A stretch of 64,000 nt of DNA, taken from contig CAJWVI010000001.1 in assembly GCA_913048115.1 (NCBI GenBank), positions 1 through 64,000 of the forward strand. Reading direction: 5' to 3'. Under the pieces are notes generated by a model, which worked only from the letters and a program-made list of their open reading frames with translations, had not been told where the DNA came from and did not search any database. The translations under genes were made by a program, and so were the position numbers. This DNA is from an uncultured Flavobacteriaceae bacterium. Lineage in GTDB: Bacteria; Bacteroidota; Bacteroidia; Flavobacteriales; Flavobacteriaceae. Shown one piece after another: positions 163 through 43,921 of this stretch; within the stretch, counting starts at the first letter, position 1, and each line of letters opens with the position of its first letter.

Positions 163-1626
163 TTATATTTTTAAAAGTTTTAACGTAGTGTCTTCAATAG
201 CAAGAAAGTATGCCCCTTTTTGTATTTCAGATAAATTTAGTGTTATTTTTGAATGTATAAACAACCCTTGTTTTATTATTTTTCCTGAAATATCCGTAAT
301 CGTATAACGTTTATTTTGAAGATCACAGTCACAGATAATAGAGAAAACATCTTTGGATGGGTTTGGGAATATGATTGGGGGGTTATTTTTGTTTTCATCT
401 ATTCCTAAAGGGCTATTATTGTATTGAGCTACAAGTAAATTAATTTCTGGGCCATTATACCAAATATCACTTCCTGCAAGTAAAATCTTTCCATTAGGAG
501 TGGGGCTTATGATATAACCACTAAGCTCACTGTAATTATATTGAAAAACAAAACTCGCGTCAAAAGCTCCGTTAGAAAAGTGTCTTCTTAAAAAGGGTGT
601 TACGCCACCTTCCCAATCTGGAGTCTCCGAAGTTGTTATGAATCGCTGGTTTTCTTGGATAAAAGCGACAGAATACCCGTCTAGAATTCCATTATCAGCA
701 AAATTAACATCTTGAGTTCCATTGGGTATAAATTTTAATATTTTTCTAATAAATAGGTCATTTTCTGTATCATAACTCACAAAACTTAATAAAAAACTTC
801 CTGTGTTAAATACATGAATAGCAGTGTTCCTCAAACCCTGGAAATATATTTCTATGCTACCATTATTTCCAAAGCTAGTATCTACTTGTCCATTTTGAGA
901 AATACGTACGACCTTGTTTAGAATATCACTATTTGTATTTTCTTTAGTAGAATAGTTTATTAGAATAGTACCATTATCTAGAAATTTGATAGGTTTTTTA
1001 TAAAAGTTTAAAAAAGGGTTTAGTGGAAATACAGCGCGCCCTTGGTCACCAAAGGTCGTGTCTACAAGACCATTGCTCGTGTATTTTTTAAGGAAATAAT
1101 CTCTATTAGTTGAATAAATGATCCCAGACGTATAAATACTTCCATCTTCATGTAGCGCATAATTAAGTACACTAATAGAACTGCCATTATTATTATTAAT
1201 AGAGCCATTATCTCCAAAACTTAAATCTCGGTCTCCATTTGGTAGCAACTTTATAACAGTGTCTCCATACTGGTATAGTATAGTATTGTCATCTAATACA
1301 CTAATGTTATTTATAGGTGTGCCCGTATCATTGGCTATAATTAGATAACCATTGTCGCCAAAAGAAGTGTCTGTACTACCGTCTTCATTATAAACTTGTA
1401 TAAAACCTATCGTGGCAATAAGAATTGGATATTCAGTTGCTAAAACAGCAATTCGACCACTAGCGCCTTGACTTACAGAAGATATGACTAAAGAGGTTTC
1501 ACCAAAGTTTTTTAGAGCCAAACCTTGATTTCCAAAGTCTAGAAAAGGGCTTCCGTCTTGGGCTAGAACAGGAAGCAATATAAGGAGAAGTTTAAATAAA
1601 AGTAATTTCTTCAAAACACGATTCAT
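163..1626 (-). CDS. Secreted delta-60-type repeat protein with T9SS C-terminal sorting domain
   Basis: A 487-residue predicted extracellular protein. Residues 1-23 form a signal peptide ending VLAQ. The body carries spaced copies of a D-x-S-F-G-D-N-G motif (near residues 86-93, 134-141, 189-196 and 249-256, with weaker ones later), which is the signature of the delta-60 repeat, a probable beta-propeller. The last ~75 residues (from IIFPNPSKDVF to the end LKLLKI) look like a type IX secretion type A sorting domain, so the protein is predicted to cross the outer membrane and be released or anchored. It is monocistronic, with its own -7-like box directly upstream. Ligand or role is unknown. The T9SS component SprE is encoded in this same window. 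Confidence 0.8.
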   Translation of the reverse strand: MNRVLKKLLLFKLLLILLPVLAQDGSPFLDFGNQGLALKNFGETSLVISSVSQGASGRIAVLATEYPILIATIGFIQVYNEDGSTDTSFGDNGYLIIANDTGTPINNISVLDDNTILYQYGDTVIKLLPNGDRDLSFGDNGSINNNNGSSISVLNYALHEDGSIYTSGIIYSTNRDYFLKKYTSNGLVDTTFGDQGRAVFPLNPFLNFYKKPIKFLDNGTILINYSTKENTNSDILNKVVRISQNGQVDTSFGNNGSIEIYFQGLRNTAIHVFNTGSFLLSFVSYDTENDLFIRKILKFIPNGTQDVNFADNGILDGYSVAFIQENQRFITTSETPDWEGGVTPFLRRHFSNGAFDASFVFQYNYSELSGYIISPTPNGKILLAGSDIWYNGPEINLLVAQYNNSPLGIDENKNNPPIIFPNPSKDVFSIICDCDLQNKRYTITDISGKIIKQGLFIHSKITLNLSEIQKGAYFLAIEDTTLKLLKI

Positions 1627-1629
1627 AGT

Positions 1630-1890
1630 TTAAAGATACCAAAAATAGTAACAATAGATTTTCGTGCATTCCTAACCCTAATAGACGGAGTATCCAGCCA
1701 AAGGTACCTGAGGAAAAGTAGCCAAACGAGCACAAGGCTTAGGTGTTTAAATAGGGATGCTACGACATACTAATACAAAAATAAATACAAAATCATTCGG
1801 GATGTTATTTCTTTCCCTAGAGGACAGCGATTATATGAAATTTCAGAAAAACATAAAAAGAACCCACAATTCTTGAATTTGAAGGTATAA
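1630..1890 (+). pseudogene. Possible remnant of an unidentified gene upstream of recJ
   Basis: The 314 bases between the T9SS protein and recJ hold no intact gene. One plus-strand frame is open for 86 codons except for a single TAA at 1771-1773 and ends at a TAA at 1888-1890. Its second half reads like real protein (IIRDVISFPRGQRLYEISEK, then HKKNPQFLNLKV), and the first half contains DGVSSQRYLRKSSQTS. I do not recognise the family. It has no good start codon and overlaps the promoter region of the minus-strand neighbour, so it could be a decayed gene end or a chance open frame. Confidence 0.25.
1631..1638 (-). promoter_or_regulatory. -7-like box TATCTTTA, four bases before the start codon
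   Basis: On the minus strand TATCTTTA is followed by AACT and the ATG of the delta-60/T9SS protein. It matches the Bacteroidota -7 consensus TAnnTTTG at all but the last base. No clear -33 TTTG was seen. The spacing implies a leader of almost no length. Confidence 0.4.
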
Positions 1891-1940: not shown

Positions 1941-3635
1941 ATGCGCTGGAACCTTTCCCCAAAACCAAATTTAGATACAGTAACTCACTTAGCTCAAGCT
2001 TTAGGGATCGCTCCTTTATTAAGCTCGCTCTTAGTGCAAAGAGGAATTACAACATACGCTGAAGCCAAACGCTTTTTTAGGCCCGGGCTTGATGAGTTGC
2101 ATGACCCCTTTTTAATGCAAGACATGCACCTTGCTGTAGCGCGAATACAAACAGCCATCGCAAAGAAAGAGAACATCTTGGTCTACGGAGACTATGATGT
2201 AGATGGGACCACGAGTGTCGCGCTAATGAGTAGTTATTTAAAGAGCTACTACCCAAATGTAGTTACTTATATTCCAGATCGTTATGAAGAAGGATATGGG
2301 GTTTCTTATAAAGGGATTGATTTTGCGGCAGACAATAGCATCACTCTTATTATTGCCTTAGATTGTGGAATCAAAGCCATAGAAAAAGTAGCATATGCCA
2401 CAAAAAAAGGCATTGACTTTATTATTTGTGACCACCACCGTCCTGGTCCAGAAATACCAAAAGCAGTTGCGGTTTTAGACCCTAAAAGAGAAGATTGTAA
2501 GTACCCATATAAAGAACTATGTGGATGTGGCGTTGGCTTTAAGCTTATTCAAGCTTTGGCCTCTGGACGCGGCCAAACTATTGATGATTTATTGTTGTAT
2601 CTAGACCTTGTGGCCACCGCTATTGGTGCAGACATTGTTCCTGTTACTGGAGAGAACAGGGTGTTGGCCTATTATGGGCTTAAGGTAATTAACAGCAATC
2701 CTAGAGTAGGCTATCAAGCCATGTTGAAACAAGTACAAAAAAGCACCCTCACTATTACCGATGTTGTTTTTATAATTGCACCACGCATTAATGCTGCGGG
2801 TAGGATGAAACACGGAAACCATGCGGTGACACTATTAGTAGAAACAGATTTAAATAAAGCTGCTGTTTGGGCAAGTGAAATAGAACAATTTAACGAAGAC
2901 AGGCGAGACGCAGATAAGCGCATCACTCAAGAGGCTTTAGCGCAAATTCAAGAAGCAGCCCAAGAAAACGCAAATACAACGGTTGTCTATCAAAAAGATT
3001 GGCACAAAGGGGTTATTGGTATTGTAGCCTCCAGATTAATAGAAACGTACTACCGCCCTACACTGGTTTTTACAAAAAGCGGAGACAGACTTGCGGCTTC
3101 GGCACGATCGGTGAAAGGCTTTGATGTCTATAATGCTCTAGAGGGGTGCGCTCCATACATAGAACAGTTTGGCGGTCATAAATACGCAGCAGGGCTAACC
3201 CTGTTAGAAAAAGACTATGCAGGCTTTAAAGCACAGTTTGAAAAAGTGGTCTCTGAAACCATCGATCCAAAATCACTCAACCCTGAGCTCACGATTGACG
3301 CGGAGCTTGACTTTGCAGACATCACTCCAAAATTTTACAGAATTTTAAAGCAATTTGCACCTTTTGGCCCTGGGAACAGGCAGCCAGTTTTTATGACAAA
3401 AAACCTAAAAGACACTGGGTATGGAAAATGCGTGGGAGCAGATAAAACACATTTACGCCTCACCCTAAAACAAGGAAAAAGTAGCGCATTTATTGGTATT
3501 GGTTTTGGTCTGGGAGATAAAAAAAACATTGCCTGTACAAATACCCCCTTTATAGCAGGGTACTGTATTGATGAAAATCATTGGCAAGGAAACGTAAGTT
3601 TACAGTTGCGCTTAAAGGATGTTAAGGCTATTTGA
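1941..3635 (+). CDS. recJ: Single-stranded-DNA-specific exonuclease RecJ
   Basis: A 564-residue 5'-to-3' single-strand exonuclease of recombination and mismatch repair. The DHH phosphoesterase core is clear: GDYDVDGTTS near residues 83-92 and the CDHHRP motif near 163-168 supply metal ligands, and FGGHKYAAGL near 420 is the DHHA1 motif, followed by the C-terminal OB-like region. Length is normal for the family. I start at MRWNLSPKP (1941) rather than 1896, because the upstream 15 codons overlap a -7 box and encode an unlikely hydrophobic tail. The 3' end overlaps the convergent LpxH-like gene by eight bases. Confidence 0.95.
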   Translation: MRWNLSPKPNLDTVTHLAQALGIAPLLSSLLVQRGITTYAEAKRFFRPGLDELHDPFLMQDMHLAVARIQTAIAKKENILVYGDYDVDGTTSVALMSSYLKSYYPNVVTYIPDRYEEGYGVSYKGIDFAADNSITLIIALDCGIKAIEKVAYATKKGIDFIICDHHRPGPEIPKAVAVLDPKREDCKYPYKELCGCGVGFKLIQALASGRGQTIDDLLLYLDLVATAIGADIVPVTGENRVLAYYGLKVINSNPRVGYQAMLKQVQKSTLTITDVVFIIAPRINAAGRMKHGNHAVTLLVETDLNKAAVWASEIEQFNEDRRDADKRITQEALAQIQEAAQENANTTVVYQKDWHKGVIGIVASRLIETYYRPTLVFTKSGDRLAASARSVKGFDVYNALEGCAPYIEQFGGHKYAAGLTLLEKDYAGFKAQFEKVVSETIDPKSLNPELTIDAELDFADITPKFYRILKQFAPFGPGNRQPVFMTKNLKDTGYGKCVGADKTHLRLTLKQGKSSAFIGIGFGLGDKKNIACTNTPFIAGYCIDENHWQGNVSLQLRLKDVKAI

Positions 3636-4398
3636 TTTGTGTGGCTTCAAATTCTTTTAATTCGAAATTAGCGCCATCAAAAACGCCATAGGTGTACTGT
3701 GTAATCCAATCACCTAGGTTGAAGTATTCACTAGACTCCCCTACGTTTATTTTCATAGCCAAATGGCGGTGCCCAAAGACAAAATAATCATACTGTTTTG
3801 TTTCTAGTTTTCTCCTAGCGTATTGCGCCAACCACTCTTGTTCATCTCCTAGAAACACCTTATCATCGTCACCAGAAAGAAGTTTATTTTTCACAGATAG
3901 ATATTGCGCCAAACGCATCCCTAGTTCTGGATGAAACCACCTAAATAACCATTTAAATACAGGGTTGGTAAACACCTTTTTCATGCGTTTGTACCCTATA
4001 TCACCAGGGCCTTTTCCGTCTCCGTGCCCAATAAGAAATACTTTATTGTTGAAGGTAAATTCTTTAACATCTCTGTAGGTTGGTATATTGAGCTCTTTTT
4101 CAAAATAGTCTTTCATCCACAAGTCATGGTTTCCAACAAAAAAGTAAATAGGGATACCACTGTCACTTATCTCAGCTAGTTTACCAAGCACGCGAACAAA
4201 TCCTTTTGGAACTACGGTTTTGTATTCAAACCAAAAATCAAACAAATCTCCTAATAAAAAAATGGCAGCAGCATCTTCTTTGATCGTGTCAAGCCACCGT
4301 ACAAATTTTTGTTCTCTAGGAAGACTTTGGGCTGCCGAAGGAGCACCTAAGTGGTTGTCGCTAGAGAAATATATTTTTTTTCCTGGAGGAATTTGCAT
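3628..4398 (-). CDS. lpxH: UDP-2,3-diacylglucosamine diphosphatase-like metallophosphoesterase
   Basis: A 256-residue calcineurin-like phosphoesterase predicted to cleave UDP-2,3-diacylglucosamine to lipid X in lipid A synthesis at the inner face of the cytoplasmic membrane. The dinuclear metal motifs occur in order: SDNHLG (9-14), GDLFDFW (around 50), GNHDLW (around 99), GHGDGKGPGD (around 128-137) and GHRHLA (around 210). The H-x-H motif and overall length favour LpxH over generic phosphoesterases, but specificity is inferred. The gene is transcribed convergently with recJ, sharing eight terminal bases, and has its own -7 box immediately before the ATG. Confidence 0.8.
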   Translation of the reverse strand: MQIPPGKKIYFSSDNHLGAPSAAQSLPREQKFVRWLDTIKEDAAAIFLLGDLFDFWFEYKTVVPKGFVRVLGKLAEISDSGIPIYFFVGNHDLWMKDYFEKELNIPTYRDVKEFTFNNKVFLIGHGDGKGPGDIGYKRMKKVFTNPVFKWLFRWFHPELGMRLAQYLSVKNKLLSGDDDKVFLGDEQEWLAQYARRKLETKQYDYFVFGHRHLAMKINVGESSEYFNLGDWITQYTYGVFDGANFELKEFEATQIK

Positions 4399-4402
4399 GA
4401 TT

Positions 4403-4410
4403 CAAATATA
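4403..4410 (-). promoter_or_regulatory. -7 box TATATTTG, four bases before the lpxH-like start
   Basis: Minus-strand TATATTTG, then AATC, then ATG. This is an exact match to TAnnTTTG. The position implies transcription starting at or within a few bases of the start codon. Confidence 0.5.
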
Positions 4411-4459
4411 GTTGGAAATTTACGAATTGCCACTCTTGGCTTACCTAATGGTGTTATGA

Positions 4460-4476
4460 TAACCCCTGAGGGGTTA
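4460..4476 (-). terminator. Hairpin after queD
   Basis: TAACCCC-TGA-GGGGTTA is a perfect 7-bp stem with a 3-base loop, located just past the queD stop. It lacks a clean U-run on the minus strand, so it may act as a terminator or only as a 3' stability stem. Confidence 0.4.
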
Positions 4477-4478
4477 AT

Positions 4479-4928
4479 TTAATTATCGCTAGCAAACCAC
4501 TCTGCAAAGCTAGTGGCGGTTTCCTGTAATTTTAAAGAGTGTAATTTTGTGTCTTGTGGCAGGCGTTGTTTTATTTTTTCAGCAAAATCAATCACCATCA
4601 TCTCACTAGTTGGTTGATAATCGGCTAACAAAACACTGTGCCCACGATCACTTAATTCTTTGGCAAGCTCAACGTGTGGCGTATTTTTATTAAACACAGT
4701 GGCGTGATCAAAGACGTCTACAATCTCTTCTTTTACAATTTTTTTTAAATCGCTAAAGTCTATTACCATTCCAAATTTGACATGTGACGAATCAGCAATA
4801 GGGGTCCCAATAACGGTCACAGAAAGTTTGTAGCTATGCCCGTGAACATTACGGCACTTGCCATCATACCCATAAAGTGCGTGACCCGTTTCAAATGAAA
4901 ATTGCTTGGTAATACGTATAGAACTCAT
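4479..4928 (-). CDS. queD: 6-carboxytetrahydropterin synthase QueD (PTPS family)
   Basis: 149 residues. The enzyme converts 7,8-dihydroneopterin triphosphate to 6-carboxy-tetrahydropterin in queuosine precursor synthesis. Zinc ligands fit H16 in ETGHALYG and the H-G-H of CRNVHGHSY near residues 26-33, with the catalytic cysteine just before. The family motifs DFSDLKK, FDHATVFN and PTSEMMV follow. The region near residues 105-115 (DRGHSVLLADY) is a short insertion before the PTSE motif. The gene stands alone between hairpin 4460-4476 and its own promoter box; no other queuosine genes are adjacent. Confidence 0.88.
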   Translation of the reverse strand: MSSIRITKQFSFETGHALYGYDGKCRNVHGHSYKLSVTVIGTPIADSSHVKFGMVIDFSDLKKIVKEEIVDVFDHATVFNKNTPHVELAKELSDRGHSVLLADYQPTSEMMVIDFAEKIKQRLPQDTKLHSLKLQETATSFAEWFASDN

Positions 4929-4932
4929 AGGG

Positions 4933-4940
4933 CAAAGATA
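4933..4940 (-). promoter_or_regulatory. -7 box TATCTTTG, four bases before queD
   Basis: Minus-strand TATCTTTG, then CCCT, then ATG. Exact TAnnTTTG match with the same spacing as upstream of the LpxH-like gene. The box lies between the queD start and the stop of the small ORF at 4943-5086. Confidence 0.5.
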
Positions 4941-21638: not shown

Positions 21639-22580
21639 TTACTTAATCTTTAGTTCTTTTACTAATAACCAAGCATCGTTGTTTTCGGTGCGTTTGATGG
21701 TACGAAGATTTTTAAGCGCTTCTAGCCTGTTCTCAAAACTAGCATACAAAACTTGATGTAGCCCATATTTATTAATACTAAGAGTGGTAGCTATAAATCC
21801 TTTTTTATGTAACTGTGTAGCTTTCCTATAGGCATTTTCTTTGACCCTAAAAGCACCAGCAACAATATGATATTTTCCTTTTTGTTTGGTTACTGAAAGC
21901 TTTAATGCAGGAAGAGGGCTAGCAATACTGAATGTAGCTTGTTGAATTTCTTTTTCAAGCTTGCTGTTTGCTTCTTGTTTTTGTGCAAAATTATGTTCCT
22001 GTACAGACCCCTCGTATAGCTTCATGCCTGCTAATCCAGAAACAGCTAGGGCAATAAGGCCTATGGCGGCATATTTAAGATACGGAGCTGTGCGCCTTCT
22101 TGGAGCAAATAGCAGCGTAATATCCTCCTCTTGATCAACAAGCTCCTCTTGTTGAATGTCTCTTAGTATCTCAGAAGAAATAAAGCTTGCTAAGCCAAAA
22201 GAGGCACTATTAAAATTTTCGTTTCCAGAAGGTAAAAATTGAACATTGTTTTCTTTGTTTAAAGAAAAATCACCGACGTTATCAAGGGTCACAGTAGCCC
22301 CTTCAGATAATTGAAGTGTCAAATCCCCGGTAAAACTTCTAATTTTTTGTAGCGCTAACTCATACGAGGTTCCCTCTACTGAGGCAACATAATTAGCCAA
22401 TAGGCCGTCATTAGTTTGCAATTGTTTATTAAAAGAAATGGTTTTGCCTGGGGGGTAGAATGTGCTAGAGTCTGGGTCTATAGTGGCTGATGTGTAATTT
22501 GCCAAAAAGGCACCAAAGCCGGGAATGATAACGCATTCATAACGGTATAGTAAGTCTTTTATGTATAGGGAGAGTTGCAT
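21639..22580 (-). CDS. HU-CCDC81-type plus SPOR membrane protein
   Basis: 313 residues from MQLSLYIKDLL; the first 20 residues of the ORF-track version are upstream of the true start. Residues 1-135 look like tandem prokaryotic HU-like domains of the CCDC81 type (YECVIIPGFGAFLANY, later TLDNVGDFSLNKENN). A single membrane helix lies at about 170-187. Residues 235-309 are a SPOR domain (GKYHIVAGAFRVKENAYRKA) expected to bind denuded septal glycan. The topology links a cytoplasmic HU-like region with a periplasmic septum-binding region. It stands alone, divergent from dprA. Confidence 0.8.
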   Translation of the reverse strand: MQLSLYIKDLLYRYECVIIPGFGAFLANYTSATIDPDSSTFYPPGKTISFNKQLQTNDGLLANYVASVEGTSYELALQKIRSFTGDLTLQLSEGATVTLDNVGDFSLNKENNVQFLPSGNENFNSASFGLASFISSEILRDIQQEELVDQEEDITLLFAPRRRTAPYLKYAAIGLIALAVSGLAGMKLYEGSVQEHNFAQKQEANSKLEKEIQQATFSIASPLPALKLSVTKQKGKYHIVAGAFRVKENAYRKATQLHKKGFIATTLSINKYGLHQVLYASFENRLEALKNLRTIKRTENNDAWLLVKELKIK

Positions 22581-22583
22581 AAA

Positions 22584-22591
22584 ACAAATAT
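22584..22591 (-). promoter_or_regulatory. -7 box TATATTTG, four bases before the HU-SPOR gene
   Basis: Minus-strand TATATTTG, then TTTT, then ATG. Exact consensus with the same four-base spacing as lpxH and queD. A run of A/G-rich sequence lies upstream and no -33 TTTG is evident. Confidence 0.5.
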
Positions 22592-22711
22592 AGTTTTTTT
22601 TTCTTTTCTTTTTTTTCTGCCTATAGCAACTTATTAACAACCTAAAAAATGTGTATATTGATGCCTCTCCCTAGCATAGCTCTAGAAATTATTTTCTAAT
22701 AATTTGACACT

Positions 22712-23818
22712 ATGCTTTCTGAAACTGAATTACTATATACCCTGGCGCTTCAGCGCACCCCCAACCTTGGCGACACATCTGCTAAAAAATTATTACATCA
22801 TGTAGGATCTGCCGAAGGGATTTTTAAAGAAAAACCATCAAACCTTCTTAAAATACATGGCATTGGGAGATTTAAAATTAAAGAACTACAAGAAACTCTT
22901 TTGCTAGACTTGGCCATTGCAGAGTTAGCCTTTATGAAGTCTCAAAACATAAGTTACAGTTATTTTAAAGACGCTACATACCCAGAAAAATTAAAACACT
23001 GTTTGGACGGCCCAATTTTGTTTTTTCAAGACGGAAATATAGACTTGGTCAATAAAAAAATACTCAGCATCGTAGGAACTAGAAAAATCACCACCTATGG
23101 CGTAGGTTTTTGTGAAAGATTGGTGGCGGAACTCGCCCCAATAAATCCAGTAATTGTGTCGGGTTTTGCTTATGGTATTGATATTTGTGCGCATAAAGCA
23201 GCCTTAGAAAATGGCTTACAAAACATTGCGTGTCTAGCCCATGGCATGAACCAAATATACCCCAAAGCGCATAAGAAATATATGGCTCGTGTATTAGAAA
23301 ACGGGGGGTTTATTAGTGAGTTTTGGAGTAGCGATAGGTTCTATAGAAATAATTTTCTAAAACGCAATCGTATTATTGCAGGGATGAGCCAAGCCACTAT
23401 TGTTATTGAATCTGCCGAAAAAGGCGGGAGTTTGGTCACTGCAGACATAGCTAATAGTTATGAAAGAGATGTTTTTGCTGTGCCTGGAAGAGCTACAGAT
23501 ACTCAAAGTGCAGGATGTAATATGCTTATAAAAACACATCAAGCAAGTATCATAACTAGCGCTGCAGATCTTATTTATAACCTAGGTTGGGAGCTAGATG
23601 GGCCTCAAAAGCTAGCGAAGCAAACCCAATTACTTGTGGAGCTCCATCCAGAAGAAAAAACACTATACAACTATCTTAAAGACAAGGATAAAGCACTGCT
23701 AGATGCCATTGCTATTGGATGTTCAATGCCAACATATAGGGTAGCGCAACTGTTGTTACAATTAGAAATGAAAGGCCTAGTGAGACCCCTGCCAGGGAAG
23801 TTGTTTCAATGGATATAA
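22712..23818 (+). CDS. dprA: DNA-processing protein DprA
   Basis: 368 residues. N-terminal helix-hairpin-helix region (about 10-60), a Rossmann-like DprA core with VSGFAYGIDICAHKAAL near 150-166, NRIIAGMSQATIVIES and GGSLVTADIA near 230-245, and a C-terminal winged helix ending MKGLVRPLPGKLFQWI. It loads RecA on incoming single-stranded DNA during transformation and is widely conserved even in non-competent species. The gene runs divergently from the HU-SPOR gene. Confidence 0.95.
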   Translation: MLSETELLYTLALQRTPNLGDTSAKKLLHHVGSAEGIFKEKPSNLLKIHGIGRFKIKELQETLLLDLAIAELAFMKSQNISYSYFKDATYPEKLKHCLDGPILFFQDGNIDLVNKKILSIVGTRKITTYGVGFCERLVAELAPINPVIVSGFAYGIDICAHKAALENGLQNIACLAHGMNQIYPKAHKKYMARVLENGGFISEFWSSDRFYRNNFLKRNRIIAGMSQATIVIESAEKGGSLVTADIANSYERDVFAVPGRATDTQSAGCNMLIKTHQASIITSAADLIYNLGWELDGPQKLAKQTQLLVELHPEEKTLYNYLKDKDKALLDAIAIGCSMPTYRVAQLLLQLEMKGLVRPLPGKLFQWI

Positions 23819-25228: not shown

Positions 25229-25236
25229 TAACTTTA
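25229..25236 (+). promoter_or_regulatory. -7-like box TAACTTTA, four bases before dinB ATG
   Basis: TAACTTTA, then CGGG, then ATG at 25241: one mismatch to TAnnTTTG, with the four-base spacing seen at five other genes here. If transcription starts at or after the ATG, either a leaderless message from 25241 or translation from 25259 follows. Confidence 0.35.
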
Positions 25237-25240
25237 CGGG

Positions 25241-26347
25241 ATGGACACGCCAATTCATATGAGAAAGATTATTCATGTTGACATGGATGCCTTTTACGCT
25301 AGTGTAGCGCAATTGGATGACCCATCATTGGCAGGAAAAGCTATTGCTGTAGGCGGTGGCGGGAAACGTGGGGTAGTAAGCGCAGCAAGCTATGAGGCTA
25401 GAAAGTTTGGGGTGCGTTCTGCAATGGCTGGTGCCCTGGCAATTAAATTATGCCCACACCTTATTTTTGTAAAATCAGATTTTGACCGGTATCGAGAAAT
25501 CTCAGAGAAAGTACGTACTGTATTTTTTGAATATACAGATTTGGTAGAGCCTCTTTCGCTAGACGAAGCCTATCTCGATGTTACCCAAAACAAAAAAGGA
25601 AACCCTAGCGCATCATTAATTGCTCAAGAGATACGCGCCAAGATAAAACAGCGCACAGGCTTAAATGCTAGTGCAGGAATCTCTGTCAATAAATTTGTAG
25701 CCAAAATTGCAAGCGATTATAATAAACCTAATGGCCAGAAGACAGTACCTCCAGAAGATGTGTTAGATTTTGTAGCGGCCTTAGACATTAAAAAGTTTTA
25801 TGGTGTTGGCAAGGTGATGAAAGAAAAAATGTATCGGTTTGGTATTTATACAGGACTTGATTTAAAAGCTAAGTCTCTTGAGTTTCTAGAAGAGAATTTC
25901 GGTAAAAGCGGGCCATTTTATTTTCATATTGTACGCGGCATACATCATAGTAAAGTGAGCCCTCAGCGCACCAGAAAATCATTAGCAGCAGAACGCACAT
26001 TTGGTGAAAACATTTCAAGTGAATTGTATATGATAGAGCGTTTACAGGATATAGCTCAAGAGGTAGAACGACGTCTCAAAAAAAACAAAGTAGCCGGAAA
26101 AACCATTACATTAAAAATAAAGTACAGTGACTTTACGCTGCAAACTCGCAGTAAAACACTTCCTCATTATATTGCCACAAAAGCCCTACTTATGGAACAT
26201 GTCACAGAATTATTATATCAAGAAAAGATGAAAAACTCTGTACGCTTGTTAGGGATCTCTTTATCGAGTTTGAATAATGAAAAGAAGGAGAGTTTGAAGG
26301 TTTCAGAAGAAAAAAAATACGATGTACAAATGAAGCTCGAGTTTTAA
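25241..26347 (+). CDS. dinB: DNA polymerase IV
   Basis: 368 residues, Y-family translesion polymerase. Catalytic motifs: IHVDMDAFYASV (metal-binding Asp) and PLSLDEAYLDVT (Asp-Glu pair), then the thumb helix-hairpin-helix region (KFYGVGKVMKEKMYRFGI) and little-finger domain. There is no obvious beta-clamp peptide beyond the basic C-terminus. An in-frame ATG at 25259 (MRKIIHVDMDAF) matches the usual family start, so six extra residues may be absent in vivo. Confidence 0.95.
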   Translation: MDTPIHMRKIIHVDMDAFYASVAQLDDPSLAGKAIAVGGGGKRGVVSAASYEARKFGVRSAMAGALAIKLCPHLIFVKSDFDRYREISEKVRTVFFEYTDLVEPLSLDEAYLDVTQNKKGNPSASLIAQEIRAKIKQRTGLNASAGISVNKFVAKIASDYNKPNGQKTVPPEDVLDFVAALDIKKFYGVGKVMKEKMYRFGIYTGLDLKAKSLEFLEENFGKSGPFYFHIVRGIHHSKVSPQRTRKSLAAERTFGENISSELYMIERLQDIAQEVERRLKKNKVAGKTITLKIKYSDFTLQTRSKTLPHYIATKALLMEHVTELLYQEKMKNSVRLLGISLSSLNNEKKESLKVSEEKKYDVQMKLEF

Positions 26348-30128: not shown

Positions 30129-31382
30129 TTAGGCGTCTAATTTTCTAAACAAAACACAAGCATTGTGCCCTCCAAAGCCAAAGGTGTTGCTCATGGCGAC
30201 ATTTACTTGTCGTTTTTGTGCTTTGTTGAGTGTTAAATTTAAAGATGGGTCTATGTTTGGATCAACTGTGGTATGGTTAATAGTAGGGGGTACTAAACTA
30301 TGCTGCATAGAAAGTATAGAAGCAATAGCCTCTATAGCACCTGCGGCACCCAGTAAGTGACCCGTCATAGATTTTGTAGAATTGATATTGATTTTATTGG
30401 CATGTGCGCCAAAGACCTTGCTAATTGCTTTTAGTTCTGCAACATCTCCAAGGGGTGTTGAGGTACCGTGAGTGTTAATTGCATCTACTTCACCGGCATC
30501 TATACCAGCGTCATTTAGACAGTTATGCATCACACGTTCTACACCAATACCTTCTGGATGTGGCGCCGTCATGTGATATGCATCACTTGACATTCCACCA
30601 CCAATTACCTCGGCATATATTTTTGCACCACGCGCTTTTGCGTGATCGTAATCTTCTAATATTAATGCGCCAGCGCCTTCTCCTAGTATAAATCCATCAC
30701 GAGTAGCATCAAAGGGTCTTGAAGCAGATTCTGGAGATTCATTTCTTGTAGAGAGTGCGTGCATGGCGTTAAAGCCACCTAAACCAGCCATAGTAATAGC
30801 GGCTTCACTTCCTCCTGTTACAATAATATCACAATGTCCTAAACGTATATAGTTTAGCGCATCAATCATTGCATTGGCAGAAGAAGCACAGGCAGAGACC
30901 GTTGTATAGTTTGGCCCCATAAATCCATGTTTGATTGATATATTACCAGGAGCAATATCTGCAATCATTTTAGGAATAAAAAAGGGGTTGAAACGTGGCG
31001 TTCCATCCCCTTCAGAAAAGTTTATTACTTCATTTTGAAATGTTTCAATACCACCAATACCCGCTCCCCAAATAACACCAACACGAAATTTATCTATAGC
31101 ATCCATATCTATGGCTGCATCTCGTATTGCTTCGTCACTAGAGACCATTGCGTATTGAGCAAAACGGTCTAGTTTTCTAGCCTCTTTGCGGTCAAAATGT
31201 TGTAATGGATCATAATCCTTAATTTCACAAGCAAATTTTGTTTTGAACTTTTCAGTATCAAAATAGGTAATAGGGGCACATCCACTTTTTCCGCTTTTTA
31301 GAGCGTCCCAATATTCTTGGATGTTATTTCCAATAGGGGTAAGTGCGCCAAGACCAGTTACTACAACTCGCTTTAATTCCAT
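30129..31382 (-). CDS. fabF: Beta-ketoacyl-ACP synthase II
   Basis: 417 residues, elongating condensing enzyme of fatty acid synthesis. Catalytic Cys in TVSACASSANAM, first His in INTHGTSTPLGD, second His in STKSMTGHLLGAAG, and the lysine of the latter motif. It is 12 bases after acpP and cotranscribed with it and rnc. Confidence 0.98.
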   Translation of the reverse strand: MELKRVVVTGLGALTPIGNNIQEYWDALKSGKSGCAPITYFDTEKFKTKFACEIKDYDPLQHFDRKEARKLDRFAQYAMVSSDEAIRDAAIDMDAIDKFRVGVIWGAGIGGIETFQNEVINFSEGDGTPRFNPFFIPKMIADIAPGNISIKHGFMGPNYTTVSACASSANAMIDALNYIRLGHCDIIVTGGSEAAITMAGLGGFNAMHALSTRNESPESASRPFDATRDGFILGEGAGALILEDYDHAKARGAKIYAEVIGGGMSSDAYHMTAPHPEGIGVERVMHNCLNDAGIDAGEVDAINTHGTSTPLGDVAELKAISKVFGAHANKININSTKSMTGHLLGAAGAIEAIASILSMQHSLVPPTINHTTVDPNIDPSLNLTLNKAQKRQVNVAMSNTFGFGGHNACVLFRKLDA

Positions 31383-31394
31383 AAAGAATGTATC

Positions 31395-31628
31395 TTATTT
31401 GTTTTCTTCAATATATGAAACTGCTTGACCTACTGTAGCAATGTTTTCAGCCTGGTCATCTGGAATTTGGATATCAAATTCTTTTTCAAATTCCATAATA
31501 AGCTCAACCGTATCTAGTGAGTCTGCTCCTAGGTCGTTAGTGAAGCTCGCTTCGTTTACAACTTCGTTCTCGTCTACACCTAATTTATCGACGATGATAG
31601 CTTTTACTCTTGATGCAATGTCTGACAT
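31395..31628 (-). CDS. acpP: Acyl carrier protein
   Basis: 77 residues, acidic four-helix protein. The phosphopantetheine serine is in [15 protein letters not shown]. First gene of acpP-fabF-rnc. A TATTTTTA box on the minus strand at 31660-31667 is a plausible promoter. Confidence 0.98.
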
Positions 31629-31659
31629 AATCTTTGTTTTTTAAATTTTAATTAAGCGG

Positions 31660-31667
31660 TAAAAATA
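31660..31667 (-). promoter_or_regulatory. -7-like box TATTTTTA of the acpP operon
   Basis: One mismatch to TAnnTTTG; 31 bases before the acpP ATG. The surroundings are extremely A/T-rich, so chance matching is possible. Confidence 0.3.
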
Positions 31668-31752
31668 AATTATTTTAACTTAAAACACCACTTTAAAAAA
31701 AAAATCTACAAGCAAATTAAACATTTTTAAGCGAAGTGAATCTCTATTGCCT

Positions 31753-31760
31753 TACTTTTG
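31753..31760 (+). promoter_or_regulatory. -7 box TACTTTTG of purN
   Basis: Exact TAnnTTTG match, 44 bases before the purN ATG at 31805 and downstream of the ORF-track GTG at 31736, so it supports the later start. Confidence 0.4.
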
Positions 31761-31804
31761 TGATATTTATTGATGATAACTTCTCTGAACACCCAAAGAA
31801 ACCT

Positions 31805-32383
31805 ATGAAGAAGCGTATTGTAATATTTGCTTCAGGCAACGGCACCAACACTCAAAACGTTATAAAATATTTTCAGAACACAAATGTTGCTGAAGTTGTT
31901 TGTGTGTTCTCAAACAAAAAGGATGCTAAGGCGTTAAACCGTTCAAAAGCATTGAAAGTAGAGGCGTTGTCTTTTAGTAAAGCCGAAATGTTAGCCCCTA
32001 AAGGCCTGCTTTCTTTATTGAAAGAGCGAAAACCAGATCTTATCGTTTTAGCGGGATTTTTGCTTAAATTTCCTGAAAACATCATAAAAACATTCCAAAA
32101 CAAAGTGATTAACATACATCCAGCGTTACTACCAAAGTATGGTGGAAAAGGAATGTATGGGCATTATGTTCACCAGGCTGTGGTAAAAAACAAAGAAACT
32201 GAAACAGGAATTACCATACATTATGTAAACCAGCAGTATGACGAAGGAGCCATTATATTTCAGAAGAAAATAAACATAGCGCCAACAGATACCCCAGAGG
32301 ATGTTGCAATAAAGGTCCAGGGCTTAGAACATCAATGGTTTTCTAAAGTCATCGAAGAGGTACTGTTTAATGGTAAAATGTAA
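31805..32383 (+). CDS. purN: Phosphoribosylglycinamide formyltransferase
   Basis: 192 residues, GART of purine synthesis (10-formyl-THF dependent). Start MKKRIVIFASGNGTN. Catalytic residues: Asn and His in INIHPALLPKYGG, the glycine loop, and the Asp in NQQYDEGAIIFQ. The ORF-track start would add 23 residues in the promoter region. The RNase H gene follows after nine bases. Confidence 0.95.
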   Translation: MKKRIVIFASGNGTNTQNVIKYFQNTNVAEVVCVFSNKKDAKALNRSKALKVEALSFSKAEMLAPKGLLSLLKERKPDLIVLAGFLLKFPENIIKTFQNKVINIHPALLPKYGGKGMYGHYVHQAVVKNKETETGITIHYVNQQYDEGAIIFQKKINIAPTDTPEDVAIKVQGLEHQWFSKVIEEVLFNGKM

Positions 32384-32392
32384 AAAGGCACA

Positions 32393-33034
32393 ATGATAAA
32401 GAAAAAACAAAAATATTATGTTGTTTGGTTTGGTAACCCAGCCGGGATTTTTCATAGCTGGAAGGAGTGTCAACAAGCTATAAAGAGTGTGGCAGGAGCC
32501 CAATATATGAGCTTTGAATCTTTGCAAGCAGCAAAAACAGCATACAATAAAAGCTACCATGACTATAAAGGTAAAGGCGGGTCTAAGAAAAAAACGCTTA
32601 CCGCAGCAGAAAAATCAGCATACGGAGTGCCAAATTTATATTCAATTGCTGTTGATGCCGCTTGTAGTGGGAATCCTGGAATAATGGAATACCGCGGGGT
32701 GGATACTCAAACCCAAAAGCAGTTATTTCATCAAGGACCATTTTATCAAGGAACTAATAATGTAGGTGAATTTCTAGCCCTTGTTCATGGACTGGCATAT
32801 CTTAAAATGCAAAAAAGTGATCGAATCATCTATTCTGACTCTAGAACTGCAATGGGCTGGGTAAAAAAGAAGAAATGCAACACAAAGCTAAAAAAGACCA
32901 AAAAGAATGACCCAATCTTTGAGCTTATAACGCGCGCTGAACTTTGGCTAAAAAACAATTCTTACAGCAGCGTTATGGTTAAATGGGAAACAAAAGCTTG
33001 GGGAGAAATTCCTGCAGATTTTGGAAGAAAATAA
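32393..33034 (+). CDS. RNase H with N-terminal viroplasmin-like hybrid-binding domain
   Basis: 213 residues. Residues 1-50 are a caulimovirus-viroplasmin/RNase H1 hybrid-binding domain (KYYVVWFGNPAGIFHSWKEC, AAKTAYNKSY). Residues 75-213 are RNase H type 1, with catalytic acids in VDAACSGNPG, NNVGEFLAL and YSDSRTAMGW, and a terminal Asp in PADFGRK. It removes RNA from DNA-RNA hybrids. It forms a two-gene unit with purN by spacing. Confidence 0.9.
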   Translation: MIKKKQKYYVVWFGNPAGIFHSWKECQQAIKSVAGAQYMSFESLQAAKTAYNKSYHDYKGKGGSKKKTLTAAEKSAYGVPNLYSIAVDAACSGNPGIMEYRGVDTQTQKQLFHQGPFYQGTNNVGEFLALVHGLAYLKMQKSDRIIYSDSRTAMGWVKKKKCNTKLKKTKKNDPIFELITRAELWLKNNSYSSVMVKWETKAWGEIPADFGRK

Positions 33035-33300
33035 GCTAGTAACATAAGAGCACTTAGTGTTTTTTATTTTTTTACAACAATTGGCAGACTCCTTTTTGAA
33101 CCAAACCTTATATATGGATGTGCATTAGGGATGTGTTTTTTGAGCATCAACATGCCTAGATTTGCCGACGAAATGCCTGCTAACACAGTTTATTGTAACT
33201 GAAATTTCCTAACAATAATTCTGTAATAGACTGTTTGATAAAACTTCTTATTTCTCATTTAATTGATTAAATTTACAGCTTAATTATTGCAAATAATTGT

Positions 33301-34224
33301 ATGAGTAAACTTGTTATTGTAGGGACCGTAGCTTTTGATGCTATTGAGACTCCTTTTGGAAAAACCGATAAAATTTTAGGAGGAGCCGCAACCTATATTG
33401 GCTTGTCTGCTTCACAGTTTGATATAGATGGCGCTATTGTGTCTGTCGTGGGAGGAGATTTCCCAAAAAATGATATCGAGATGTTAGAAGATAAAGGCAT
33501 GAACTTAGAAGGCCTTGAAATTGTAAAGCAAGGGAAAACCTTCTTTTGGAGCGGGAAGTATCATAATGACATGAACTCTAGAGATACTTTGGCCACAGAG
33601 CTTAATGTCTTAGAAACATTTAATCCAGTAGTGCCCCAGACCTATAAAGATGCAGAGGTGGTGATGCTAGGAAACCTGCACCCAATGGTTCAAATGAGTG
33701 TCATTGACCAAATGAATAATCCAAAAATGGTTGTCTTAGACACGATGGATTTTTGGATGGACATAGCTCTAGAAGATCTTAAAAAAGTAATCGCTAAGGT
33801 AGACGTTATAACCATTAATGATGAAGAGGCAAGACAGTTGTCTGGAGCATATTCTTTGGTAAATGCCGCTAAGATAATCATGGAGATGGGACCAAAATAT
33901 GTCGTGATTAAAAAAGGAGAACATGGCGCCTTGATTTTTTATAAAAATGAAATGTTCTTTGCCCCAGCCTTGCCACTAGCAGAGGTGTTTGACCCCACAG
34001 GAGCAGGAGACACTTTTGCAGGAGGATTTACAGGGTATCTAGCAAAGACAGCAGATTATAGTTTTGAAAACATGAAAAGAGCAATTATTTACGGCTCATG
34101 TTTAGCCTCCTTTTGTGTAGAAAAATTTGGCACCGAGCGCATGCAAAACTTAACAAAGCAAGAAATAGACATTCGCTTACATCAATTTAAGAGCTTGACA
34201 CAATACGAAATAGATTTATCATAA
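33301..34224 (+). CDS. PfkB family carbohydrate or nucleoside kinase
   Basis: 307 residues. The ribokinase-family signature is FDPTGAGDTFAGGFTGYL near 228-245 (catalytic Asp), with LGGAATYIGLSAS at the N-terminal substrate site. The substrate is not predictable. A 266-bp gap upstream holds no gene that I can see. It is followed by a strong terminator and then by the PurF-like gene in the same direction, a pairing I associate with Bacteroidota. Confidence 0.85.
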   Translation: MSKLVIVGTVAFDAIETPFGKTDKILGGAATYIGLSASQFDIDGAIVSVVGGDFPKNDIEMLEDKGMNLEGLEIVKQGKTFFWSGKYHNDMNSRDTLATELNVLETFNPVVPQTYKDAEVVMLGNLHPMVQMSVIDQMNNPKMVVLDTMDFWMDIALEDLKKVIAKVDVITINDEEARQLSGAYSLVNAAKIIMEMGPKYVVIKKGEHGALIFYKNEMFFAPALPLAEVFDPTGAGDTFAGGFTGYLAKTADYSFENMKRAIIYGSCLASFCVEKFGTERMQNLTKQEIDIRLHQFKSLTQYEIDLS

Positions 34225-34229
34225 CAATG

Positions 34230-34253
34230 CGTCCCAAATTTTGGGACGTTTTT
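34230..34253 (+). terminator. Terminator after the PfkB kinase
   Basis: CGTCCCAA-ATT-TTGGGACG is a perfect 8-bp stem followed by five Ts. It separates the kinase from the PurF-like gene, so the latter needs its own promoter or read-through. Confidence 0.85.
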
Positions 34254-34307
34254 GATTTACATACATACGATTATTAATCATTAATAAGATTCTCGCCTCC
34301 GCGAGAA

Positions 34308-36212
34308 ATGAATATGAGTGACGCTTTAAAACACGAATGCGGAATTGCGCTAGTACGTTTGTTAAAACCTTTGGAGTTTTACAAAGAAAAATACGGTACA
34401 GCTTTTTACGGAGTGAATAAAATGTATTTAATGATGGAAAAACAGCACAACCGTGGTCAAGACGGTGCTGGTTTTGCAAGTATAAAATTAGACCCCACAC
34501 CAGGAGAACGATACATAAGTAGAGTGCGGTCTAACAAGTCTCAACCCATTCAAGATATTTTTGCTCAAATCAATAATCGAATTAATACTGAGTTTGAAAA
34601 AAACCCAGCCATTAAAGATGATGTTGCGGCGCAGAAAAAAGAAATTCCTTATATAGGAGAACTCATGTTGGGCCATGTACGGTATGGAACCTTTGGTGGC
34701 AATAGCGTAGAAACTGTGCATCCCTTTTTAAGACAAAATAACTGGATGCATCGCAACCTTATTATTGCAGGGAACTTTAACATGACCAATACCACAGAGT
34801 TATTCCAAAACTTAATTGATTTAGGAATGCACCCTAAAGAAAAGGCAGATACTATTACAATACTTGAAAACATTGGTCATTTCTTAGATCAAGGTGTTGC
34901 CAGGTTATACAAAAAAGCAAAAAAGCAAGGCCTATCCAAAATGGAAGCTTCTGCTCATATCATTGAAAACCTAAACATTGAAAAGATCTTAAAAAAATCT
35001 GCCAAAAACTGGGATGGTGGATATGCTATGGCAGGATTACTAGGTCATGGAGATGCTTTTGTATTACGGGACCCTGCAGGAATTCGTCCAGCGTATTATT
35101 ATAAAGATGATGAGGTAGTAGTTGTTGCTAGTGAACGCCCTGTAATACAAACCGTTTTTAATGTTGCCTTTGAAGATGTAAAAGAAATAGATCCAGGAAA
35201 TGCCATGATTCTTAAAAAGGATGGTAGCATGAGCATTTCAGAAATAGTGCCTCCATTAGAGCGCAAGTCTTGTTCTTTTGAACGCATTTATTTCTCTCGC
35301 GGTAGTGATGCCGAAATTTACCAAGAACGAAAAGAATTAGGGAGATTGATTATGCCTAAAGTATTGGCAGCTATTGATCATGACACAGAAAACAGTGTCT
35401 TTTCATTTATTCCAAACACTGCTGAAACTTCTTTCTACGGGATGCTAGATGCTGCCCAGAATGAGCTAAATAAACAAAAAAACGAAGCCATTTTAAAAGA
35501 AGGAATTTCCCTTACACCAGAACGACTTAACGAAATACAGGCTCATAAAATACGCACCGAAAAGATTGCTATTAAAGATGTAAAGCTACGCACGTTTATT
35601 ACAGATGACAGTAGTAGAGATGATTTAGTGGCGCATGTTTATGATGTAACCTATGGAGTAGTGAAGGCTACAGATAATTTAGTGATTATTGATGATAGTA
35701 TTGTGCGCGGAACCACATTAAAGAAGAGCATTTTACGAATGCTAGACCGCCTAAAACCCAAACAAATTGTTGTGGTGTCTTCTGCTCCTCAAATACGGTA
35801 TCCAGACTGTTATGGAATCGATATGGCTCGACTAGAAAAGCTTGTTGCTTTTAATGCGGCTGTTGAATTACATAAAGACAATGGTACAGAGGCCATCATC
35901 GAAGAGATTTATCATAAATGTAAAAAACAACTTTTACTTGCAGATGCAGAGGTTATAAACCATGTAAAAGAACTTTATGCGCCCTTTACAGATGAAGAAA
36001 TATCAGATAAGATCGCTGAGATAATTTCAGAAGATAGTATTACAACAAAAGTGAAGTTAATATTTCAGTCTGTAGATGATTTGCACAAAGCATGTCCTAA
36101 AAATCTAGGAGATTGGTATTTTACAGGAGACTATCCAACCAATGGAGGGAATAGAGTTGTAAACAGAGCCTACGTAAATTTCTTTGAAGGAAATCCGGAA
36201 AGAGCATACTAA
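34308..36212 (+). CDS. PurF-like amidophosphoribosyltransferase / class II glutamine amidotransferase
   Basis: 634 residues, about 130 longer than typical PurF. The N-terminal glutaminase has a cysteine in HECGIALVRL (residue ~11; if mature, the leader must be cleaved), HNRGQDGAGFAS, GHVRYGTFGGN and GNFNMTN. The phosphoribosyltransferase half has DNLVIIDDSIVRGTTLKKSI near 457-475, the PRPP loop. Insertions occupy roughly 385-430 and the C-terminus. It could be a true PurF or a specialised paralogue. An in-frame ATG at 34314 is an alternative start. A terminator lies about 160 bases past the stop. Confidence 0.8.
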   Translation: MNMSDALKHECGIALVRLLKPLEFYKEKYGTAFYGVNKMYLMMEKQHNRGQDGAGFASIKLDPTPGERYISRVRSNKSQPIQDIFAQINNRINTEFEKNPAIKDDVAAQKKEIPYIGELMLGHVRYGTFGGNSVETVHPFLRQNNWMHRNLIIAGNFNMTNTTELFQNLIDLGMHPKEKADTITILENIGHFLDQGVARLYKKAKKQGLSKMEASAHIIENLNIEKILKKSAKNWDGGYAMAGLLGHGDAFVLRDPAGIRPAYYYKDDEVVVVASERPVIQTVFNVAFEDVKEIDPGNAMILKKDGSMSISEIVPPLERKSCSFERIYFSRGSDAEIYQERKELGRLIMPKVLAAIDHDTENSVFSFIPNTAETSFYGMLDAAQNELNKQKNEAILKEGISLTPERLNEIQAHKIRTEKIAIKDVKLRTFITDDSSRDDLVAHVYDVTYGVVKATDNLVIIDDSIVRGTTLKKSILRMLDRLKPKQIVVVSSAPQIRYPDCYGIDMARLEKLVAFNAAVELHKDNGTEAIIEEIYHKCKKQLLLADAEVINHVKELYAPFTDEEISDKIAEIISEDSITTKVKLIFQSVDDLHKACPKNLGDWYFTGDYPTNGGNRVVNRAYVNFFEGNPERAY

Positions 36213-43552: not shown

Positions 43553-43909
43553 TTATAAAGTAACATCTACTTTAACAAGTAGATACCAATCATTCTCTAG
43601 TGCTAAGTATCCTTGATCATAGACATAATAATACACAGACCCCGTTTTTGTTATGTATTGAGATGTATAGTACTTGAAATCAAAATGATGTTTTAGTAAT
43701 GCTTCCTTCTTTACCTTGGTTTTGTCTTTGGCATTCAAGGTCTTTAGAGTGCGGTAATTTTTACGCAATCTATTATTTATATTTCGCACCAGGTTACTAC
43801 TGTCTTTATTTAAGGTGTTATTGTGTGAGTTGCGGCAGCCGTCGCTACAGAATTTTTTATCTGCGCGCCCCATAATTTTGTCACCACATTCTGGACATTT
43901 TTTCTCCAT
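43553..43909 (-). CDS. Small zinc-ribbon protein
   Basis: 118 residues. An N-terminal four-Cys zinc ribbon (CPECGDKIMGRADKKFCSDGC, ligands at 5, 8, 21 and 25) is followed by a basic helix (NNRLRKNYRTLKTLNAKDKT) and a C-terminal beta-rich segment. Common in Bacteroidota as DUF2116-like proteins, function unknown; possibly nucleic-acid binding. Confidence 0.75.
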   Translation of the reverse strand: MEKKCPECGDKIMGRADKKFCSDGCRNSHNNTLNKDSSNLVRNINNRLRKNYRTLKTLNAKDKTKVKKEALLKHHFDFKYYTSQYITKTGSVYYYVYDQGYLALENDWYLLVKVDVTL

Positions 43910-43913
43910 AGGT

Positions 43914-43921
43914 TAAAGATA
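43914..43921 (-). promoter_or_regulatory. -7-like box TATCTTTA, four bases before the zinc-ribbon gene
   Basis: Minus-strand TATCTTTA, then ACCT, then ATG. A TTTA lies 18 bases upstream of the box, a partial -33 match. Confidence 0.4.

Follow-up and report, generated by a model that had tools for sequence, protein, structure and literature searches.

Leaderless transcripts are already known in flavobacteria as a minority of mRNAs. In the start-site map of Flavobacterium psychrophilum they make up 5.5% of 890 mapped mRNAs, and the sigma-A box TAnnTTTG lies at -12 to -5 (PMC9723704). Leaders of 10 nt or less account for 13% of Flavobacterium johnsoniae transcripts, and the promoters of this species carry a TAHHTTTG box 4-5 nt from the transcription start site (TSS), AT-rich zones at -18 and -28, and no evident -33 element (PMC6847099); in Bacteroides thetaiotaomicron, leaders under 10 nt represent 3.7% (PMC7366714). 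The leaderless state has also been deduced from the presence of a -10-like box close to the start codon at a constant distance, as for the TA-led genes of Zheng et al. (2011), whose signal, TANNNT, is of the sigma-70 type; in that survey many genes of Bacteroidetes fell into an atypical class (PMC3160421).

In this work, we analyzed a window of 64,000 nucleotides from an uncultured Flavobacteriaceae bacterium (GCA_913048115.1, contig CAJWVI010000001.1, positions 1 to 64,000), in which six genes had been noticed to carry a box of this kind immediately before the start codon. These genes resemble the leaderless mRNAs of F. psychrophilum in their promoter (TAnnTTTG at -12 to -5), rarity and organism family, and the short-leader transcripts of F. 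johnsoniae in a TAHHTTTG box predicted to lie 4-5 nt from the TSS, the lack of a clear -33 element and the AT-rich -18/-28 zones. In contrast, the leaderless state was measured by 5'-end RNA-seq in F. psychrophilum and is inferred here from sequence, and the TAHHTTTR box is unlike the sigma-70 type signal of the TA-led genes. The main text of the F. psychrophilum study gives no gene list or box-ATG spacing (PMC9723704), and the accessible part of the F. johnsoniae study, which treats short leaders as a minority, contains no description of a class with exact box-N4-ATG spacing or of how well it is conserved (PMC6847099). Genes of this kind are already known; the new details are the lineage-dependent leader state predicted for queD, lpxH and bioB, the retention in dinB and the occurrence at four neighbouring biotin genes. 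A visual impression is turned into a quantified, testable class, namely a start-codon-abutting promoter at one spacing, readable from sequence across Bacteroidia, which helps in the correction of start-codon annotation and in the choice of promoters for genetic tools. Further, dinB, where the arrangement is kept, and queD, lpxH and bioB, which would alternate between the leaderless state and leaders of 12-20 nt, provide species pairs for the role of a leaderless start, a question set here in a group without Shine-Dalgarno initiation.

Candidate sites in the window

The first-pass annotation had described six genes with a box exactly four bases before ATG, three of the boxes being exact and three differing at the last base. 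Inspection of the window sequence located TAHHTTTR-N4-ATG at all six genes, with G as the last box base in three sites and A in the other three. The sites lie at the places stated, except that the span of the HU-SPOR site had ended one base short (22591 instead of 22592). The sites are as follows:

1624..1638, minus strand: TATCTTTA-AACT-ATG, T9SS cargo gene 163-1626 (DUF5122 beta-propeller and Por_Secre_tail)
4396..4410, minus strand: TATATTTG-AATC-ATG, LpxH-like metallophosphatase gene 3628-4398
4926..4940, minus strand: TATCTTTG-CCCT-ATG, queD 4479-4928 (PTPS family)
22578..22592, minus strand: TATATTTG-TTTT-ATG, HU-CCDC81/SPOR gene 21639-22580
25229..25243, plus strand: TAACTTTA-CGGG-ATG, dinB 25241-26347 (Y-family polymerase)
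43907..43921, minus strand: TATCTTTA-ACCT-ATG, small Cys-rich zinc-ribbon-like ORF 43553-43909

By Pfam, five of the six products could be identified: the T9SS-sorted protein is a beta-propeller, the LpxH-like one a metallophosphatase, in agreement with LpxH, the queD product a PTPS/QueD protein, the HU-SPOR product an HU-CCDC81/SPOR protein, and the dinB product a Y-family polymerase, in agreement with DinB. The zinc-ribbon-like ORF is the weakest member of the six, because it had no Pfam match and its coding score was low. None of the other window genes carried an exact match to the box at a spacing of 3, 5 or 6.

As a separate observation, HU-SPOR has a divergent neighbour at 22712-23818 whose start is preceded, at spacing 4, by a box with one mismatch (TAATTTGA); this gene is a possible seventh candidate.

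Enrichment of the box at spacing 4

Gene calling relied on a simple procedure based on ORFs and hexamers, which took the leftmost ATG and never consulted the box. At a spacing (k) of four bases between box and ATG, the pattern was found at 6/56 ATG starts of the window vs 1/2073 non-start ATGs (Fisher p=1.7e-9), and shuffling of the upstream regions (300 shuffles) gave a mean of 0.13 and a maximum of 2. The genome-scale test, carried out on 864 kb of sampled stretches from the same genome, yielded 30/693 starts vs 29/29,506 other ATGs (p=1e-33); dinucleotide shuffles of upstream regions (100 shuffles), a comparison that the first-pass annotation had proposed, gave a mean of 1.86 and a maximum of 7. 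Its argument that the identical spacing is not due to chance is borne out by both p values, the combination being commoner at starts than in either shuffled or non-start contexts.

The spacing histogram displayed a sharp spike at 4, limited to true starts, with 1/693 starts at k=3 and a small shoulder at 5-6 (9/693 at k=5 and 9/693 at k=6), followed by a fall and a second broad hump at around 15-25, which corresponds to the promoters of leadered genes. The k=4 class comprises 4.3% of the sampled genes, or about 4-5% of those in the genome, a figure that fits the published flavobacterial and Bacteroides minorities; relaxing the box to TT[CA]G endings added 8 genes. An upstream region of 37 bp or more was available for 452 genes. 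Of these, 28 were of the k=4 type and 191 had a box at k 8-70, so that k=4 candidates represent about 13% of the genes in which a box is recognisable and a promoter has room, some of the 191 being chance matches. GTG starts showed a weak k=4 spike (5/693), and TTG starts showed none.

Promoter features of the box

Changes at any core position removed the spike (1 gene at k=4 for T[CGT]HHTTTG and 0 for TAHHT[ACG]TG), as did a pyrimidine as the final base (TAHHTTTY, 0), and G and A were equally good as last base in this genome (15 and 15 k=4 genes). The alternative F. psychrophilum box, TAnnTTGY, was not enriched at k=4. In its core positions, the box behaves as the -7 element of a primary sigma factor (sigma-ABfr type) promoter.

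Base composition was compared between 76 candidates and 1895 other starts pooled over five genomes. A C directly after the box (-4) was present in 38/76 candidates vs 272/1895 other starts (p=8e-17), and a pyrimidine at -1 in 55/76 vs 1046/1895 (p=0.003); the bases after the box look promoter-like, unlike the end of an ordinary leader. A Kozak-like A at -3 did not differ between the two sets (37/76 vs 927/1895). The +1 bases of the candidates cannot serve as evidence, since they are fixed by the ATG, and at the predicted TSS of leadered promoters the purine/pyrimidine preference was weak.

Upstream of the box, the AT fraction of the candidates was 0.76-0.86 at -20 to -16 and 0.78-0.84 at -30 to -28, with a control of about 0.66; the AT-rich zones near -18 and -28 of sigma-ABfr promoters are present, and the -33 TTTG, which is not defining in flavobacteria, is absent. 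The frequency of TTG at -33 was 0.013 in the 76 candidates, at or below background, and leadered promoters displayed only a slight TTG excess at -34. The first-pass annotation had correctly seen that a clear -33 element is lacking, but its suggestion that initiation may depend on special features is not needed: the lack is ordinary, because flavobacterial promoters in general have no clear one, as described for F. johnsoniae (PMC6847099), and the AT-rich zones are in place.

Leaderless reading and its alternatives

The six sites are best read as leaderless genes, a conclusion that is well supported although inferred. Since the published box lies at -12 to -5 (PMC9723704), a box followed by N4-ATG would place the transcription start on the A of the start codon, a predicted position that derives from the published box-TSS distance. 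We assign a probability of about 0.87 to the reading that these are sigma-ABfr promoters with TAHHTTTR ending four bases before ATG and giving leaderless mRNAs. The earlier proposal that the mRNAs begin at or next to the AUG appears sound in view of the published box position, the core-base specificity and the promoter-like bases after the box, the 5' end itself being a prediction. The start codons are supported by orthologues of QueD, LpxH, HU-SPOR and DinB, the four proteins covered, which align from residue 1 or nearly; HU-SPOR orthologues were found in 61/61 genomes and most align from residue 1, which supports its start codon.

Under this leaderless reading, the primary sigma factor (sigma-ABfr type) would recognise the -7 box TAHHTTTR, RNA polymerase would begin transcription at the A of ATG, producing an mRNA with 5'-AUG at its end, and the ribosome would probably initiate on this terminal AUG without a Shine-Dalgarno or Kozak-like leader. 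Leaderless initiation does not require Shine-Dalgarno pairing. Bacteroidia are described as not using such pairing (PMC9976891).

An alternative that we regard as unlikely, though far from negligible, is that the promoters are real and the start choice shifts by a base or two, giving leaders of 1-2 nt or, in some molecules, partial loss of the AUG, so that the mRNAs would be near-leaderless and not strictly leaderless. A distance of either 4 or 5 nt from box to TSS was reported by Baez et al. (PMC6847099), spacings of 5 and 6 show a small excess (9 genes each), and dinB has the box at k=3 in 13 loci, mainly from the Flagellimonas/Muricauda group; however, the maximum is sharp at exactly 4 and k=3 is nearly absent (1/693), which suggests that a start on the A is selected. 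A role of the box at the mRNA level, as a translation signal, with transcription beginning further upstream, is very improbable. In favour of it, the box keeps a constant distance to the start codon, and a second upstream box occurs in 3/30 k=4 genes (vs 101/424 others, a depletion trend with p=0.11). Against it, the sequence shows another peak at k 15-25, which is unexpected for a fixed translation signal, its base preferences match those of the sigma-A box, and AT-rich zones accompany it in the DNA (-16 to -20 and -28 to -30). That the six sites are chance matches chosen by eye in AT-rich sequence has next to no probability and is ruled out by the genome-scale test (864 kb, p=1e-33), for although they come from one window by selection, where one non-start ATG bears the pattern too, the window excess (p=1.7e-9) and shuffle means of only 0.13 and 1.86 stand against it.

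Conservation in dinB and variation in other orthologues

In a family search with one genome per genus, the dinB box was located at exactly 4 in 23/30 genera, and among 110 dinB loci, which come from two partly overlapping searches, the spacing was 4 in 61, 3 in 13 and 5 in 3. The dinB start codon is secure, because the four bases between box and ATG vary among loci, as do the first residues, and no later ATG is able to serve as start in 62/81 loci with a near box; the window dinB has a second ATG at codon 7, where relatives have isoleucine or another residue. The predicted arrangement is unusually well conserved in dinB, where it appears strongly kept.

Two further observations concern this gene. 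In the Flagellimonas/Muricauda relatives (L283, L286, L292-L294) the box lies at spacing 3, not 4, which suggests a one-base start shift with the leaderless state kept. In several genera (L248, L252, L261, L267, L269, L264 and L257), short inverted repeats such as ggcatttaatgcc or attcctgc...gcaggaat are found directly upstream of the dinB box, and may represent either an operator or the terminator of the adjacent gene.

For queD, lpxH and bioB, the leader state is predicted to be lineage-dependent. The queD box is at spacing 4 in ten readable f4 orthologues (a count that excludes L086) and in L082, from another genus of the own family, and most sampled own-family relatives are leadered, with the box at k 16-22. 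For lpxH, L109, the one further genus of the family with this arrangement among those sampled, has spacing 4, as do three f6 genomes, whose box is of the TATCTTCG type; for bioB, spacing 4 was found in 3/30 genera (one genome per genus), the remainder being mostly at 17-25.

Further candidates in the genome

The names of candidates outside the Pfam-tested set rest on inspection of the sequence. The box at spacing 4 was present at a umuD-like gene (C4:3326-3691, L044) that adjoins a DinB/UmuC paralogue (C4:2448-3323), at uvrC (L067) and at the exodeoxyribonuclease III-like xthA (L041). A possible bias towards DNA-damage genes was noticed among the k=4 candidates.

Four biotin genes, bioF, bioD, bioA and bioB, each have their own TAHHTTTR-N4-ATG within 6 kb (L042:10405-16074; contig C3 about 30405-36074); a search for repeats shared between their upstream regions gave nothing informative.

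Altered ribosomes, or 70S monosomes, favour leaderless mRNAs in stressed E. coli and M. tuberculosis (PMC12186496), and a link of this effect to dinB is speculation. Tentatively, and with the odds clearly against it, selection might actively maintain the leaderless state of dinB, perhaps also of the umuD-like gene, uvrC and xthA, so that a translation route stays open under stress in bacteria that initiate without Shine-Dalgarno pairing.

Distribution across Bacteroidota

Comparative counts ignore shared ancestry, except for the bioB and dinB family searches with one genome per genus. The maximum at k=4 was observed in sampled stretches of all five genomes (the own genome and four others, from four families); in the GC-richer G078 the counts were small and k=5 was nearly as frequent as k=4. 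Across the order, k=4 matches in whole-genome pattern counts outnumbered those of the reversed-pattern control for most genomes, and generally exceeded the matches at k=5. The 12 genomes from other orders of class Bacteroidia contained 849 k=4 vs 348 control matches. In the 60 genomes that represent other classes of Bacteroidota the excess is nearly absent (1445 vs 1212), a fading that is expected if the class tracks the Bacteroidia-type sigma factor.
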